DNA from: a virus
DNA: 24,428 nucleotides
Reading direction: 5' to 3' (one strand)
Virus record (IMG/VR): IMGVR_UViG_3300036853_000276
Location: 1 to 24,428 of that record
How positions within the stretch are numbered: position 1 is the first letter of the stretch; every line of letters starts with the position of its first letter. Position numbers and translations under genes: made by a program. Of this stretch, positions 11,516 through 24,428 are shown piece by piece. Under the pieces are notes generated by a model. It did no database searches and was not told where the DNA came from. It saw only the letters and a program-made list of their open reading frames with translations.

Positions 11516-13469
11516 TGCACCCGCTTCGCCGGATCCGGCTACCACTATTCCGTTGCAAACGCAGGCGAACATGCAGATGTTCGATCAAGCGTTAAACGCA
11601 CAGCGGACTAATTCCTACGGACCCACCGGGTCACAAACTTGGTCAAATGCACCTACCTTTGATGAGGCTGGGTATAACCAAGCTTTGGAACAGTGGCGGC
11701 AGAGCCAGCAGTCCCCTCCTGGCTTGTCGGGAAGATTTGGCCAAATGCTGGGGCAAGGAACACAAACTCCAGCTCCGTCCCGTGACGATTATACACGAGA
11801 CATCTGGACGCAAACCACTACCCTTTCCCCCGAACAGCAAGCTCTATATGACCGGAGCACCCAAGCCCAGCAAGCGATGACTAATCAAGTCGCAGGGCAG
11901 GCGGGACAACCGCTTGATTTCTCCGGCGCACCTTCGTTAACGGGTTCTTTAAACCAAGCTTCCCTGAGTTCAAATTACTTCCAGCCTTACCAAGCCGTCC
12001 AAGTCCCGAATCAAACCTCGACACAGAGTTTTCAAGGAATTCAAGCCCCCAATTTAACTTCAGACCAGAGCTTCCAGACAGTACAGGCGCCCACGGTTAG
12101 TTCAAACCAAAGTTTTCAAGGCATCCAAGCGCCGAACCTTACGTCGAATCAAAGCTTCCAAGGGGTTAACGCACCACAGCTAAACGCACAAGACTTGCAA
12201 CAAATTTCTCAACGTGGGCTTTCTCCCGGACAACTCTCCCAGGGGGTTAACGAGGCTTTGCAGAGCTACAACTCCCAAATTGGGCAGCTTGATCCAATGC
12301 AGTTTAACCAGCAAGCTGCGGATGCGATTTATGGCCAAGGGACTCGATATCTAGACCCGGCGATTAAACAACAACAATCTAGCATGGAAGCCCGGCTGGC
12401 TGAACAAGGCTTTGTCCCCGGAACTCCTGCGTATAACCAGGCCATGACTAACTTCATGGATACGAGCAATCGCGCGTATGCAGATGCACGAGATAGGGCC
12501 ACCTCCGCTGGAGTGTCCTCTGGACAAGCCAACTTTGGAAATCGACTCGGGGCGCTTCAATCCCAAATTACTACAGCACTCCAGGGCGGAAATTTCCAAA
12601 ACTCACAACAGGCACAGGACTTTTCCCAGCAACAAGCACAAGCGGCGCAAGATAGGCAAATTGGGCTGGATCGGAACGCGGTTATGTCCGCGAATGATTC
12701 GACCCGAAATGCTCTTGCACAACAGAATTTCCAAAATCAATCTTCTTCCGCACAACAAAACTTTCAAAATCAAGCTGCAATTGAAGCCGCAAGAAACGCG
12801 GCCTCTCAGGGGAATTTCCAGAATCAATCTAGCGCAGCCCAGCAGCTATTCCAGAACCAAGGCACAGCCGAATCTGCGAGAAATCAAGCCGCGCTACAAA
12901 ACTTCCAAACCCAATCAGCTTCCGCCCAACAAGCGTTTCAAAACCAAGCAGCTATGGAAGCGGCGCGGAATCAAGTCGGGCAACAAAACTTTCAAAATCA
13001 AACTGGAGCGGCACAGCAACTGTTCCAAAATCAAGGAACAATAGATGCGGCGAGGAATAACGCACTCCAAGCCAATTTCCAAAACCAACAAGGGAATGCG
13101 GACAGGACTTTTGCTAATAACATGTCCCTTGGCCAGCAGCTAAATTCCGTCGCTCAGCAAGGGTTCCAAAACCAACTAACCGCCGGGCAGTTTGGAAACC
13201 AGGCCAGGAATCAATCGATTGCTGAGATTCTCCAGCAGAGGAATCAGCCGCTAAATGAGCTTAACGCGTTGCGGAGTGGATCCCAAGTGCAAATGCCACA
13301 AGGAGCAGGGTCCTCGCCCACTCCCAATCTCCAAGCCCCTGACATTATGGGTGCTTACAACAATCAATATATGGGGCAGTTAGGTGCGTATAACGCACAG
13401 GTTGGGCAGGATAACGCAACTACTGGCACAATGGGTCAATTAGCCATGGCCGCAGCCATGTACTTCTAA
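11496..13469 (+). CDS. Gln-rich repeat protein, candidate internal virion/ejection protein
   Basis: A 657-aa protein dominated by Gln, Asn and Ala. Residues about 165-234 are five tandem 14-residue units (pattern FQGIQAPNLTSNQS). Residues about 409-534 hold four copies of a 29-residue unit containing paired NFQNQ motifs separated by Ala/Gln helices, plus a partial copy. Between them is a less repetitive region with RYLDPAIKQQQSSMEARLAE and a YNQAMTNFMD helix. The start at 11496 has GGAG nine bases upstream, inside the 3' end of the GNAT gene; earlier in-frame starts would read through that gene's shadow. Position and composition suggest a protein stored in the head and ejected with DNA, but no catalytic motif was seen. 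Confidence 0.7.
   Translation: MGKSSGSAPASPDPATTIPLQTQANMQMFDQALNAQRTNSYGPTGSQTWSNAPTFDEAGYNQALEQWRQSQQSPPGLSGRFGQMLGQGTQTPAPSRDDYTRDIWTQTTTLSPEQQALYDRSTQAQQAMTNQVAGQAGQPLDFSGAPSLTGSLNQASLSSNYFQPYQAVQVPNQTSTQSFQGIQAPNLTSDQSFQTVQAPTVSSNQSFQGIQAPNLTSNQSFQGVNAPQLNAQDLQQISQRGLSPGQLSQGVNEALQSYNSQIGQLDPMQFNQQAADAIYGQGTRYLDPAIKQQQSSMEARLAEQGFVPGTPAYNQAMTNFMDTSNRAYADARDRATSAGVSSGQANFGNRLGALQSQITTALQGGNFQNSQQAQDFSQQQAQAAQDRQIGLDRNAVMSANDSTRNALAQQNFQNQSSSAQQNFQNQAAIEAARNAASQGNFQNQSSAAQQLFQNQGTAESARNQAALQNFQTQSASAQQAFQNQAAMEAARNQVGQQNFQNQTGAAQQLFQNQGTIDAARNNALQANFQNQQGNADRTFANNMSLGQQLNSVAQQGFQNQLTAGQFGNQARNQSIAEILQQRNQPLNELNALRSGSQVQMPQGAGSSPTPNLQAPDIMGAYNNQYMGQLGAYNAQVGQDNATTGTMGQLAMAAAMYF
11988..12197 (+). 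repeat. Five 42-bp tandem coding repeats
   Basis: Each unit encodes 14 residues of the pattern FQGIQAPNLTSNQS; the first begins YQAVQVP and the fifth diverges at its end. DNA copies differ at many third positions, so selection probably acts on the protein pattern and the duplication is not recent. Confidence 0.8.
12720..13097 (+). repeat. Four 87-bp tandem coding repeats plus a partial copy
   Basis: Units start at 12720, 12807, 12894 and 12981, with a partial copy from 13068. Each encodes 29 residues with two NFQNQ-like motifs 11 residues apart, then an Ala/Arg-rich helix (AAIEAARN). Third-position differences indicate an old, maintained repeat. Confidence 0.8.
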
Positions 13470-14155
13470 TGAAAACCGCCTTGGCTTTCTCTGGTGGTAA
13501 GGACTCCTGGGCTTGCCTTTGGTTAAGCCAGGCCCAACTTCCTGAAATAACTGTTCTCTGGGTAAATACGGGGAAAAACTATCCAGAAACATTAGAATTA
13601 GTAGAGCAGGCCAAGACACTTTGCCCCAACTTTATCGAGATTGCTTCCAATCGAGCTTTTCAAAATGAGGTTAATGGAATCCCGGCGGATGTGGTCCCAA
13701 TTCGCTGGACTCGCTTGGGTCAGTCGTTCTCCGGAAAAAAGCCGGTAACCATTCAGCCATATTTGAACTGTTGCTACGAGAATATTTCCCATCCACTTAA
13801 TAATCGAGTGCAGGAGCTAGGAATAACACACCTGATTACGGGCCAGCGTAATACAGAAACCCACAAAGGCGCAATGCGGCATGGACAAGTAATAAATGGT
13901 GTTACCCACCTCCACCCCATTGAAACCTGGACTGACTTAGAACTTTTCACCTATCTCAGAACAAAAATGGTGATCCCGGAGCATTTCAAGATCAAACACT
14001 CCTCCTTGGATTGCTATGATTGCACTGCGTATTCCCACGAGTCCGAAGACCGAATTGAATACACCAAGGAAAAGTATCCCGAGTTGTACGAGCAATATCT
14101 CCAAAGAAAAACGGCTGTAGACTCTGCGATTATTGAGGAATTGCAATGGAAATGA
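13469..14155 (+). CDS. PAPS-reductase-fold protein with predicted Fe-S cluster
   Basis: A 228-aa adenine-nucleotide alpha-hydrolase-type protein. The PP-loop motif SGGKDS (residues 8-13) binds the ATP or adenylyl group in this superfamily; the following VLWVNTGKNYPET is the usual substrate-binding strand. Cysteines C101 C102 and C182-x-x-C185 form a CC-x79-CxxC pattern very close to the 4Fe-4S site of APS/PAPS reductases (CysH). The C-terminus ends ELQWK and lacks the catalytic ECG(I/L)H cysteine those reductases need. It is therefore probably not a true sulfonucleotide reductase. It starts in the stop of the Gln-rich gene (TAATG) and overlaps the next gene by ten bases, placing it inside the virion operon. 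Related proteins take part in RNA thiolation and DNA phosphorothioation; the role here is unknown. Confidence 0.85.
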   Translation: MKTALAFSGGKDSWACLWLSQAQLPEITVLWVNTGKNYPETLELVEQAKTLCPNFIEIASNRAFQNEVNGIPADVVPIRWTRLGQSFSGKKPVTIQPYLNCCYENISHPLNNRVQELGITHLITGQRNTETHKGAMRHGQVINGVTHLHPIETWTDLELFTYLRTKMVIPEHFKIKHSSLDCYDCTAYSHESEDRIEYTKEKYPELYEQYLQRKTAVDSAIIEELQWK

Positions 14156-20943: not shown

Positions 20944-21207
20944 TTAGCCCTCTTCGGAGGGCTTTTTTTCTTCTTGTTCGATTTGAGTGACAATTGGGAG
21001 CATGCAGTCTTCACGGTTTAAGCAGGGGCGCTCCCCCCTTTTCAAGGCTTTGTAGTGATAACAAATAGTGTGGTAGGATTGGTTTAGATTAGCTCCCATT
21101 TCATGTCTGTCCTCCCCGCGAGCACGACATAGGCGAAGATAGGCATGTGGACAGCAATAGCCTTCGTTAAGTATCTTGGTAAAAAGGCTTCCAATTGGGG
21201 CAGTCAT
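20944..21207 (-). CDS. Small Cys-rich helix-turn-helix-like protein
   Basis: An 87-aa protein, last gene of the leftward operon. Residues 33-58 (EDRHEMGANLNQSYHTICYH and following KALKRGE) resemble a helix-turn-helix, and six cysteines (C18, C19, C27, C49, C62, C68) may bind a metal. AAAGGAA precedes the ATG, and its start overlaps the HNH stop (ATGA). Its C-terminal residues are encoded by the terminator stem of the convergent operon. A DNA-binding regulatory role is plausible but unproven. Confidence 0.6.
   Translation of the reverse strand: MTAPIGSLFTKILNEGYCCPHAYLRLCRARGEDRHEMGANLNQSYHTICYHYKALKRGERPCLNREDCMLPIVTQIEQEEKKPSEEG
20946..20969 (+). terminator. Rho-independent terminator of the late operon
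   Basis: AGCCCTC (20946-20952), a TTCG tetraloop (20953-20956) and GAGGGCT (20957-20963) form a stable stem followed by T residues to 20969. It ends rightward transcription. The same DNA encodes the last residues of the convergent minus-strand gene. No matching T-tract exists for minus-strand transcripts. Confidence 0.92.
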
Positions 21208-21578
21208 TTCCTTTTCTCCAAGATTCTTTCCAGCTTGCGTTGGTTGTTTATTTTACCTGGGACAGGCTCTAAACAATCCGGGCGGCAACAAGCGGAGTTT
21301 ACACAAGTGTGATCTAGTTCTAGTCCGCTCTCGCGAAATTCTCGATAGGCTAGCCAAAGGTCATTTGCATTTTCACATTTGGCTTCTAACCAAAGCCAGG
21401 AAACGAGGTGGACCATTAGTGTTTTAGTTTTTCCTAGCCCCGGGATATAAACTTCCATTCTCCCATAACCCCAGCGATCTTTTCTTTTCTTCCAGATCCA
21501 GCAGCCTTGTTCGCTGGTGGGCTCTTCCGTATTAGCGATGATTCGTAGGAACAAAGTTTCATAACGGACTCCGCTCAT
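21204..21578 (-). CDS. HNH endonuclease
   Basis: A 124-aa His-Me finger nuclease. The N-terminal CWIWKKRKDRWGYGRM block leads to MVHLVSW (H57), then the core ELDHTCVNSACCRPDCLEPV (residues 87-106) with D89, H90, N94 and structural cysteines C92, C97, C98. The final metal position, usually His in PAHLEPV-type motifs, is Cys102 here. Such small HNH genes are frequent phage passengers, acting as homing endonucleases or in DNA processing. It overlaps the gene on each side by four bases, so it is now fixed in the operon. Catalytic activity is uncertain. Confidence 0.88.
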   Translation of the reverse strand: MSGVRYETLFLRIIANTEEPTSEQGCWIWKKRKDRWGYGRMEVYIPGLGKTKTLMVHLVSWLWLEAKCENANDLWLAYREFRESGLELDHTCVNSACCRPDCLEPVPGKINNQRKLERILEKRK

Positions 21579-22771
21579 TTCACCTCCGTTAGAAAAACCA
21601 TCCCAGTTTCACGGGAGAGCCCAATATACCCAGCGTCTTGAAGTCCGATTAGGATTTTATCGAACTTGTCCGAGTCTGGATAGAGTTTATGCATAGCGCG
21701 GTAGAGGATGGAAAATGGCATCTTTCCTCCGTAGCGGCGAATAACGCTTAGAACTTGGTCTGCCCCTTGAGAGTCGGCGCTAGCACCCATGCGGGAATAC
21801 ACATTCGGCATACTCTTCTCCAACTCATCGAGAAGAGCCACTGCGCGTTTGATAATAGGGAGGTCGATTACCAGGGAATTATTCTGGGAAACCGCAAGGA
21901 CCATGGCGACCTTGTGTACAAGGGTCTGCTTCCGTGCAATGTATCCCCCGATCAAAGTCGCGTCTAGCTTCTTTGCTTGATTTTTATGAAAATCCTCGTA
22001 CCAAGCTTGTCCCCATTCTCGGACTTCCTTAGTCAGGGTAAATTTCCCCACCAACTGCGCAATCCGGCCGAGGTCACGGATTAGCTTTTCTTGCCTTACT
22101 GTGTAATCTTCTGGCAGGTGGTCTTGGGGGTATGCAATATATTTTGACTTCGCATCCGCATAGATGAAAAGCATGCGGGAGGTTAATCCACCTCCAATTA
22201 GATAACGCCCAAAGTTGTCCGCTATCCAGTCTGGGGTTGTGCAAGCGATGATATTTAAGGAGGGGGTCGGAATCTTCAACTCCCCATCCTTCCGAGTCCT
22301 CTTCCTCATTTCCACCCCGTCCCAGATGTGGACAAGTTGGTCAATCATTTCGAGGTCTTTGGTGTTGAGAGTTATCCCAAACTCGGGAGAGTTAATGACG
22401 AGAGGGAATTGAGTTTGGACCTCCGTATCAGAGACTTCAAACTCTTCCCCGACTTCGACAAAGGCATCGTAGAGGGATTGCCAGGTGAGGGTCGAGGGGC
22501 CGAATCGGATTTCAGGGAGGGCACGGAGAAGTCGCATGCCGAGGTCGGCTGTGCTTCCTTTCGACACGATCCCGGGCGGTGCGACAATTAGGGTGTAAAG
22601 ATTTGGCCGCCAGATAAAAGTCCCCATATCGATCCAAACTTTTCGGCGAAGCGCGGCGGCGATTGTTGCTACCCCCACCCAAAAGTACATATGAACCGGC
22701 GCCTCTCCCCATTTGGAATTCTCTACAAACTCTGACAACCAATCTGGGAGTTCTCGATCGAGATTTGACAT
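21575..22771 (-). CDS. DUF3987-like primase/helicase-type ATPase
   Basis: A 398-aa protein. Residues 1-60 include a WxxxxAxxxxAAALRRKVWI helix typical of the DUF3987/primase-associated phage family. The P-loop region reads IVAPPGIVSKGST (62-74): it keeps the PPG and a Lys-x-Ser but not the usual G-K-S/T order. A probable Walker B-like segment is FPLVINSPEFG, and IACTTPDWI fits a sensor strand. The C-terminal ~80 residues (VLSVIRRYGGKM on) resemble a winged-helix. Its operon includes DNA polymerase, so it probably acts at the replication fork, possibly as a helicase or primase partner. Translation is coupled to the HNH gene by ATGA; the Tat protein stop lies seven bases before its start. Confidence 0.78.
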   Translation of the reverse strand: MSNLDRELPDWLSEFVENSKWGEAPVHMYFWVGVATIAAALRRKVWIDMGTFIWRPNLYTLIVAPPGIVSKGSTADLGMRLLRALPEIRFGPSTLTWQSLYDAFVEVGEEFEVSDTEVQTQFPLVINSPEFGITLNTKDLEMIDQLVHIWDGVEMRKRTRKDGELKIPTPSLNIIACTTPDWIADNFGRYLIGGGLTSRMLFIYADAKSKYIAYPQDHLPEDYTVRQEKLIRDLGRIAQLVGKFTLTKEVREWGQAWYEDFHKNQAKKLDATLIGGYIARKQTLVHKVAMVLAVSQNNSLVIDLPIIKRAVALLDELEKSMPNVYSRMGASADSQGADQVLSVIRRYGGKMPFSILYRAMHKLYPDSDKFDKILIGLQDAGYIGLSRETGMVFLTEVK

Positions 22772-22778
22772 TTTGGGG

Positions 22779-23027
22779 TTAGTTTTTGAAAACCAATGTT
22801 TTAATACGCTCTGTCACTCCTGGGAGGTATTTAATTAAAACTAATTCAATTCCTGGGTGTACTCTTTCGTGGTGTGCTTTGAAATAGGCAATATCTGCAT
22901 CGGAAAATCCATAAATGTGTGCAGTTATTATTTCTTTCTCTGGCACCCGAATCTTCATCAAATTCTCCGCATGCACAATCGCCGGAGCGACGAAAAGCCC
23001 GGAAAGGAATTCTCTTCTCTGAATCAT
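22779..23027 (-). CDS. Small protein with a twin-arginine signal peptide
   Basis: An 82-aa protein beginning MIQRREFLSGLFVAPAIVHA: Arg-Arg at residues 4-5, F7/L8, a hydrophobic stretch and a plausible signal-peptidase site after A20, matching the Tat consensus (R-R-x-F-L). The mature part would be about 60 residues (IRVPEKEII, then AYFKAHHERVHPGIELVLIK) with no recognised domain. It is coupled to the polymerase stop by ATGA overlap and precedes the DUF3987-like gene. Tat export normally carries folded, often cofactor-bound proteins; this one is very small. Exported partner, membrane-anchored peptide or leftover signal are all possible. Confidence 0.75.
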   Translation of the reverse strand: MIQRREFLSGLFVAPAIVHAENLMKIRVPEKEIITAHIYGFSDADIAYFKAHHERVHPGIELVLIKYLPGVTERIKTLVFKN

Positions 23028-24428
23028 TTCGCATCCCCCCAGCTTCTTTCAGAGGTTTTGATCCCGACAGGGATGATTAATGGATCGGGGTAAGGAATCT
23101 CGATTCGAGAGAGTTTATTGAGTAGAATCAAGCTTTGCTCCTTTTCTTCAATGGGGAACTGGCCAGCGAGGGAGTCGTGAACTTGGAGGAGAAGTTCGAT
23201 GTTGGTCTCCCCTCGTTGCTGGGCAGCGTCAATGTTGATGAGGGCTTGGTTGATAACACGCGCAACTACACTCTGCGGTTGCCAGCCAAGGGCTTCGGGA
23301 AGATCATAATCTCCAAACTGATAAAGCCTGGCGCCGAAGATATTCGTTACATAGCCTTGTTGGTGCATTTGCTTCTCCGTCCTTTGATGCCACTTCTTAA
23401 TCCCAGGATGCATTGCAAACCACCTGGCGATGAATTTCGCAGCTTCGTGCCGGGAGATGTTTAGTTCCAAAGCAAGCTTGTAATCACCTACTCCGTAATC
23501 CACCGCGTGTGCGCCCTTTTTCGACTTGTCCCGATTCGCTTTCCCAATCTTTGCCCGATGTTCTTTATAATTCGGATGATCTTCGCTTAACTCGTCGTAG
23601 GGAATTCCCTTGATATCAAAAATATCACAAGCATTAACAAGGTGGATATCAAGGTTGTTTCGGAGGGCGAGCTTGAGAATATCATCATCCGCTTCCCACG
23701 CTACTACTTGCAAATCCGCCCGGTCCAAGTCCATGTCGAAGAAAAGCATCCCGGGATCGGGGATGAAGAGCTTTCGGATGTTGGGGAGTTTGATGTAGTC
23801 GGGGTCTTTAATTTTTTGCTTTTCTTCGGTAGGGATGTTTTGAAGGTTCATCCCACTACCAAAGGCATTCCCCGAGGAAGCAAAGCGATAAGTAATTGGC
23901 CCCGCAACCGAGAACGCGCATCGCATGCGGTTGTCGTAATCCAGGTCAGCGTTGATAAAGGTTTTAAGGAAAACCCCAATCGAACGAAGCTCGGTGATAA
24001 GGATGCAAAGGGGTTTGAGAACTGGCTCTCGCAAGGCAATTTGCGCCATTGCGGGGGAATTCGTTGTTATAGCTTCAGTTTGCAACGCGCGGATAACCGG
24101 GAGCTTTAAGTCGTGGTAGAAGAGCTTAATTAGTTGTGTTGAGGAACGGGGGTTAAGTGGACCTCCGGCAACGTAATCTAGCTTAGCTTGTCGATCTGTT
24201 TGGGTGGCAAGGAGACCGATTTTAACGTGCTCCCTTTCCTTCCTATCCAGTGCTACTCCCCGATTCATCATCCGGAGAACAGGGAAGAAAAGGTCCTGCT
24301 GGAATTTCTGATGGGCGATAAACTTCTCATCTCCTTTAGCAAATTCAATCCCAGTTTGACGAATCTCGGGGGAGATTTCCCAAGTGATGACACAATCTTT
24401 GCAGTTGTAGATCCAGAGTTGTTGTTCC
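23024..24428 (-). CDS. Family A DNA polymerase (5' end outside window)
   Basis: The frame stays open from 24428 to the stop at 23024 (467 residues visible), so the internal Met at 24271 is not the start. The first residues include YNCKDCVITWEI, matching the exonuclease III motif (Y-x3-D). Polymerase motif A is FFDMDLDRADLQVVAWEADD, with the metal-binding Asp but Asp where Pol I has Glu710. Motif B is KKGAHAVDYGVGDYKLA, with Tyr at the Pol I Phe762 place and His where Lys is usual. Motif C is LLLQVHDSL, HDS instead of HDE. These changes occur in a phage branch of family A. It is the replicative enzyme of the phage and is coupled to the Tat-signal gene. Confidence 0.93.
   Translation of the reverse strand, partial: EQQLWIYNCKDCVITWEISPEIRQTGIEFAKGDEKFIAHQKFQQDLFFPVLRMMNRGVALDRKEREHVKIGLLATQTDRQAKLDYVAGGPLNPRSSTQLIKLFYHDLKLPVIRALQTEAITTNSPAMAQIALREPVLKPLCILITELRSIGVFLKTFINADLDYDNRMRCAFSVAGPITYRFASSGNAFGSGMNLQNIPTEEKQKIKDPDYIKLPNIRKLFIPDPGMLFFDMDLDRADLQVVAWEADDDILKLALRNNLDIHLVNACDIFDIKGIPYDELSEDHPNYKEHRAKIGKANRDKSKKGAHAVDYGVGDYKLALELNISRHEAAKFIARWFAMHPGIKKWHQRTEKQMHQQGYVTNIFGARLYQFGDYDLPEALGWQPQSVVARVINQALINIDAAQQRGETNIELLLQVHDSLAGQFPIEEKEQSLILLNKLSRIEIPYPDPLIIPVGIKTSERSWGDAK

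Follow-up and report, generated by a model that had tools for sequence, protein, structure and literature searches.

A predicted Tat leader at the polymerase–primase junction of a phage fragment and its relatives on environmental phage contigs

The gene at the polymerase–primase junction

Why a small protein with an apparent Tat export signal should be encoded between the DNA polymerase and primase genes of a phage is the question raised by the locus described here, which comes from a 24.4-kb viral fragment (the whole stretch analysed, 24,428 nucleotides in length, is referred to as the window). The ORF is as an earlier sequence-only reading had described it, 82 amino acids long and lying between the two replication genes (Table 1), and the translational coupling to the polymerase proposed there is borne out by the overlap of the ATG of the gene (23027–23025) with the TGA of the polymerase (23026–23024), which share the four nucleotides ATGA. 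At the other end, the stop codon is 8 nt before the start of the DUF3987 primase (22771). When scored for phage codon usage, the frame of the gene was the best of the six (-4.5 nats compared with -16.8 to -51), and its GC content of 39.8% is lower than that of the polymerase (48.7%) and primase (50.3%), which suggests acquired DNA. The length of 415 amino acids given earlier for the polymerase ORF needs correction, as this counts the part after an internal methionine and the frame is open to the window edge. We also note two other genes in the window, an HNH/His-Me homing endonuclease-like gene adjoining the primase (21204–21578, minus strand; PF05551, phrog_1872) and a phosphoadenosine phosphosulfate reductase-like gene of the auxiliary metabolic type amid the virion genes (13469–14155, plus strand; phrog_424, E 1.4e-21).

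Table 1. Coordinates of the features at the polymerase–primase junction of the window.
Feature	Position	Strand	Basis
Tat-leader accessory gene, 82 aa (MIQRREFLSGLFVAPAIVHAENLMKIRVPEKEIITAHIYGFSDADIAYFKAHHERVHPGIELVLIKYLPGVTERIKTLVFKN)	22779..23027	-	ORF, ATGA overlap, coding-frame score
Predicted Tat signal peptide, residues 1–20 (MIQRREFLSGLFVAPAIVHA), short h-region, V-H-A signal peptidase site	22968..23027	-	Leave-out leader HMM, alignment, RR, F/L and I/L positions kept in relatives
Conserved start of the predicted mature protein, residues 21–35 (ENLMKIRVPEKEIIT)	22923..22967	-	x[SN]LM[PKR][VIL] kept in leaders
Orphan passenger domain, residues 36–82, predicted beta-alpha-beta-beta (low confidence)	22782..22922	-	AlphaFold2, homology searches
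Family-A DNA polymerase, open to the window end	23024..24428	-	PF00476 2.6e-41, phrog_17
DUF3987 / phrog_14296 primase-helicase-like gene	21575..22771	-	PHROGs and Pfam matches
GGGGGG run lying 7 nt ahead of the ATG of the 82-aa gene, a possible ribosome-binding site	23035..23040	-	Inference

The N-terminus of the protein is that of a canonical Tat signal (RREFLSGLFVAPAIVHA followed by EN after the predicted cleavage site), with the twin arginines followed by x-F/L-L (RREFL), an uncharged h-region and an AxA-like cleavage site (FLSGLFVAPAIVHA). The spacing between RR and AP is 10 residues rather than the usual 13, and the h-region is similarly three residues short in two relatives (L265 and L243). 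When 88 other phage leaders were made into a profile, with the window protein excluded, the window leader scored 50.7 bits against it compared with no more than 6.4 bits for 1000 shuffled sequences, and the leader is thus not a chance resemblance; it conforms to the RRxFL..APAIVxAx[SN]LM[PKR][VIL] pattern of the family described below. The claim of a RREFL Tat signal with a small, probably exported product stands on this sequence evidence, and the 60 or so residues expected after the signal become 62 when the cut is placed after VHA. It should be noted that the curated Tat model PF10518 did not match the window protein at E ≤ 10 and recovered only eight of the 89 family members at E ≤ 0.01; since it misses most of the leader family, this does not exclude a Tat signal. 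We regard it as likely that the product is exported in a Tat-dependent manner, and as highly probable from its sequence that the protein belongs to the phage leader-module family. Its leader has the KI/LxVP..II form common to L225, L196, L192 and L191, the first three of which have 53–62% identity to the window protein over 37–47 amino acids and the K-I/L-x-VP-II form.

No recognised domain had been seen in the mature part, and searches of Pfam, NCBIfam and PHROGs with the 82-aa protein returned no significant family match, while direct homology searches of phages, plasmids and viral contigs with the whole protein gave only chance-level matches. Residues 36–82, which we refer to as the passenger, had no homologue in phage, plasmid, viral-contig or family-profile searches, and neither hhalign nor tblastn matched residues 25–82 to another protein of the window. 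A single-sequence AlphaFold2 model had a mean pLDDT of 55 (approximately 62–70 in residues 31–70), fold searches with it gave nothing below E 0.001, and its best viral match, a 'tail protein' at E 0.009, does not suffice to assign a fold. Two candidate relatives, a fragment of the SNF2 helicase of Pseudomonas phages Epa5/19/43 (E 0.8–3; phmmer 0.94) and a 61-aa protein of phAPEC8 (tblastn E ~8–10; PHROG E 0.053), were both judged to be chance matches because the shuffle test had used the best hits of a database search and thus carries no weight.

A leader family on viral contigs

We scanned viral contigs with a DNA pattern for APA[IV]VxAxxLM and recovered at least 120 stretches, most of those listed being in-frame small proteins beginning RRxFL...APAIVRAx[SN]LM[PKR][VIL], and at least 95 distinct leader versions were present on environmental phage contigs among the matches listed. 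The search motif was drawn from the window, which guarantees the conservation of A, P, A, I/V, V, A, L and M; it placed no constraint on RR, F, S or [PK][VIL]. Conservation of the arginine pair in relatives, on which the sequence-only reading had staked the Tat signal, was found in 94 of the 95 distinct leaders among the matches listed, using this pattern without RR. The exception (L213) has room for only five residues ahead of the motif in its open frame, and a partial leader match lying next to it in the record suggests that RR is lacking through a frame break. Among these listed leaders, F or L was found at RR+2 in 91/94, the RR-to-AP distance was 13 in 81, the region between RRx and AP was free of charge in 93/94, and most had an Arg in the c-region, where a basic residue is a typical Sec-avoidance feature. 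A second viral pattern which includes neither RR nor AP (VxAxxLMKxxVP) recovered 14 stretches, nine of them already known and five new, and all five of the new stretches have RR leaders.

The strict leader pattern was found eight times in 257 Gb of cellular genomes (seven of these are real leaders) and at least 78 times among the viral matches listed. To judge from these counts, the signal and start of the mature protein are a phage-enriched module found almost exclusively in viruses. The residues at the start of the mature protein are more strongly conserved than is usual behind a signal that is simply cleaved off, and from their sequence they could be a membrane-retained segment or have a role of their own. 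Searches of a phage collection by tblastn with leader queries gave no matches, most probably owing to low-complexity masking of the Ala-rich leader, and this does not demonstrate that the family is absent from isolate phages; a longer member (L182) used as the query likewise gave no match. We note that a leader protein is also encoded in the chromosome of the cultured Bradyrhizobium erythrophlei GAS478 near transposase-like genes (L297:374–781, minus strand), and this gene is a possible laboratory system.

The 78-nt leader has 78–88% DNA identity in several pairs of contigs in which the flanks just outside are mostly unrelated (~20–47%), e.g. L259/L271, L177/L198, L228/L235 and the two copies in L223. 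Comparisons of this sort indicate that the leader recombines independently of passenger and flanks, as a unit of ~80–100 bp. The dN/dS of the leader is mostly <0.2, indicating purifying selection, and that of the passenger is ~0.2–0.5 in the two best-sampled families, from which we conclude that both parts are translated and selected. In each of two contigs (L285 and L223) a pair of leader genes lies in tandem and the two passengers differ, possibly through duplication of the cassette followed by passenger exchange. Seven further records (L182, L206, L215, L238, L247, L276 and L291) form a sub-family sharing one conserved passenger of 130–160 amino acids (QNLMPVKVIPFEPYM...) for which dN/dS is mostly 0.2–0.4; no annotated phage relative of this passenger was found, and it would be a good target for structure work.

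Junction cargo, passengers and possible roles

The position of the gene had invited the suggestion of a special tie to replication, including the tethering of replication to the membrane. We gathered ~160 viral loci using polymerase and primase profiles and measured the junction between the two genes. These abut in most distant relatives, and in the closest group (60–67% identity) most records have ~190–1580 nt of extra DNA with small, unrelated genes in it (HNH endonucleases, zinc-ribbon ORFs and short unknown ORFs). No junction gene was present in the annotated phages inspected (Manatee Spring phage, Microcystis phage Mel-JY34, Vibrio phage VS-ABTNL-3, Caulobacter phage Kuura and Pseudomonas phage 119X), and the leader was found in none of the 12 closest polymerase/primase kin records compared with all 24 of the positive-control records. 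Leaders are therefore not conserved beside phage polymerase genes, and the other leader relatives were collected without reference to the polymerase, with several lying 0.06–5 kb from a capsid gene. The tie to replication was not upheld, as the absence of the leader from the kin and the variability of the junction mean that the gene is better seen as cargo at a variable site than as a replication component, which its low GC content also fits. Tethering is disfavoured for the same reasons.

The junctions include some further rearrangements of note. Genes like the HNH gene of the window (21204–21578) fill the junction of several kin phages, the polymerase of another kin phage is apparently split into an exonuclease part and a polymerase part by an HNH-like ORF (L002:2913–5744), and two distant relatives have a related DNA-methylase-like gene of ~225 amino acids in the junction (L084:4664–5332 and L127:2823–3500; similarity assessed by eye).

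We think it probable, from the sequence comparisons above, that the window gene is a horizontally acquired, 'moron-like' accessory gene whose product is exported and acts outside the cytoplasm. The 82-aa gene would have entered the polymerase–primase junction as cargo at a variable site, and it follows the family plan of a conserved, independently recombining leader (the Tat signal plus the first 6–15 mature residues) and then a variable passenger. The host Tat system would export the product and signal peptidase would cut after VHA, and the remaining 62 residues would come to lie in the periplasm or on the inner membrane, the small domain acting there on something outside the cytoplasm. By analogy with small exported phage proteins the likeliest target would be an incoming phage or the envelope, and the superinfection exclusion or envelope alteration suggested by the sequence-only reading remains our first guess, though a tentative one, with exported virion mimicry close behind.

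Mimicry is suggested by the passengers of the relatives, since the family might export, or place in the membrane, fragments of virion proteins (mostly capsid, but also portal and tail fibre) that hinder or help virion proteins, for example by poisoning superinfecting phages or by placing assembly at the membrane. When passengers were compared with the large ORFs of the fetched loci, at least 16 of the 87 members matched at E < 1e-3 among the matches listed (17 matches less one self-match, L223), compared with 7/130 in an admittedly crude control set of small ORFs (Fisher p = 0.003). On inspection we took 14 of these 16 targets to be probable major capsid proteins; all of the eight that were scanned were 'major head protein', from five PHROGs (283, 371, 212, 1357 and 9953), and in six records the capsid match is on the same contig with 36–52% identity (G017, G022, G023, G024, G028 and G027). 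The 89-member set, which includes the window protein, matched 17 PHROG families, and all 15 of those with a named function are virion parts, although several families can come from one member. Further domains recognised by Pfam are Collar, Laminin_G_3, DUF7483 and pectate-lyase-like, and some passengers (L259 and L273) appear to be re-ordered pieces. The virion matches are in the native frame only; everything matched in frames 2–6 was either an overlapping ORF from the locus itself or from its duplicate, or the overlap frame in a related member (L194/L202), and random out-of-frame capture of passengers is therefore unsupported. Against mimicry, ~80% of the passengers had no identified source in the comparison with the large ORFs, capsid fragments have no known use in the periplasm, and the window passenger resembles no virion protein, or any other, encoded in the 24-kb fragment, perhaps because it is too diverged or because the source gene is missing from the fragment. 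The tail protein match of the window model is in keeping with mimicry. As the window passenger has no virion match and only a weak fold, we treat this as a lead at the level of the family and not as a result for the window gene, for which we consider it a rather unlikely explanation. The wider proposition, that a Tat leader mobile at the DNA level is common to phages of several capsid lineages and serves them to send fragments of their own virion proteins, chiefly the major capsid protein, to the membrane or periplasm, and that the window gene is a member, is a little easier to entertain but still doubtful.

The conservation and mobility of the leader, the differences between passengers and flanks, and the lower dN/dS of the leader might also mean that the leader is the active part, occupying or jamming the host Tat translocon or sitting in the membrane, with the passenger an interchangeable filler taken from neighbouring genes. 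This is unlikely, as filler would need neither a native frame nor purifying selection. We give still less weight to an N-terminus that merely anchors the protein at the inner membrane and brings replication or assembly there: coupling of the gene to polymerase and primase and the extension of conserved residues beyond the predicted cleavage site would fit such an anchor, but relatives of the leader show no tie to replication genes, and the polymerase/primase kin lack the leader. Least probable of all is a spurious ORF or decaying remnant. The codon usage is atypical for the phage, the GC content is low and the passenger is without relatives, but the leader profile match is far above the shuffled sequences, the gene is packed tightly between its neighbours (4 nt and 8 nt) and the family is under purifying selection. 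The horizontally acquired, exported accessory gene remains our preferred reading.

Comparison with known systems

To our knowledge, use of the Tat system is established or suspected for few phage proteins. We found no published description of the leader family (Tat with phage, capsid or superinfection; APAIVRA), subscription literature and preprints aside, and provisionally regard both the family and the capsid-piece fusions as new to the literature. That a near virus-only mobile leader is repeatedly joined to capsid pieces of five sequence families suggests a common and unexplained phage strategy outside the cytoplasm, and the export of virion fragments, if true, would make these proteins a class of exported virion mimics not described before. 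In practice, the leader offers annotators a means of identifying one set of small 'hypothetical proteins'.

The phage leader shares RRxF[LI], an uncharged h-region, an AxA-type cleavage site and a basic c-region residue with the bacterial Tat signals of PF10518, but it is shorter, with a fixed APAIVRA and the conserved mature start x[SN]LM[PKR][VIL]. In a Rhizobiales genome (G034), the sequences that otherwise score best with the leader model reach no more than 25.5 bits, compared with roughly 40–71 for phage leaders, and are presumably ordinary Tat signals. The 61-aa protein of phAPEC8 (phrog_25271; Phapecoctavirus) is ~48% alike over a stretch of 31 residues, which is not significant for a database search, and unlike the window protein it has no Tat leader.

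Superinfection exclusion 'moron' proteins such as Llp of T5, Cor and LTP of TP-J34 are small, exported, accessory proteins encoded outside conserved operons, and take the form of lipoproteins or membrane proteins in which the domain is conserved. The window protein is likewise small, accessory, predicted to be exported and encoded outside a conserved operon, but its leader is a predicted Tat signal and the domain behind the leader varies across the family. Polymorphic toxins and RiPP leaders also combine a conserved leader with a variable C-terminal part, and the phage family resembles these in having one leader common to many unrelated C-terminal parts; it differs from them in that no toxin domain, peptidase or modification enzyme was seen, and in its predicted Tat route and virion-like passengers.
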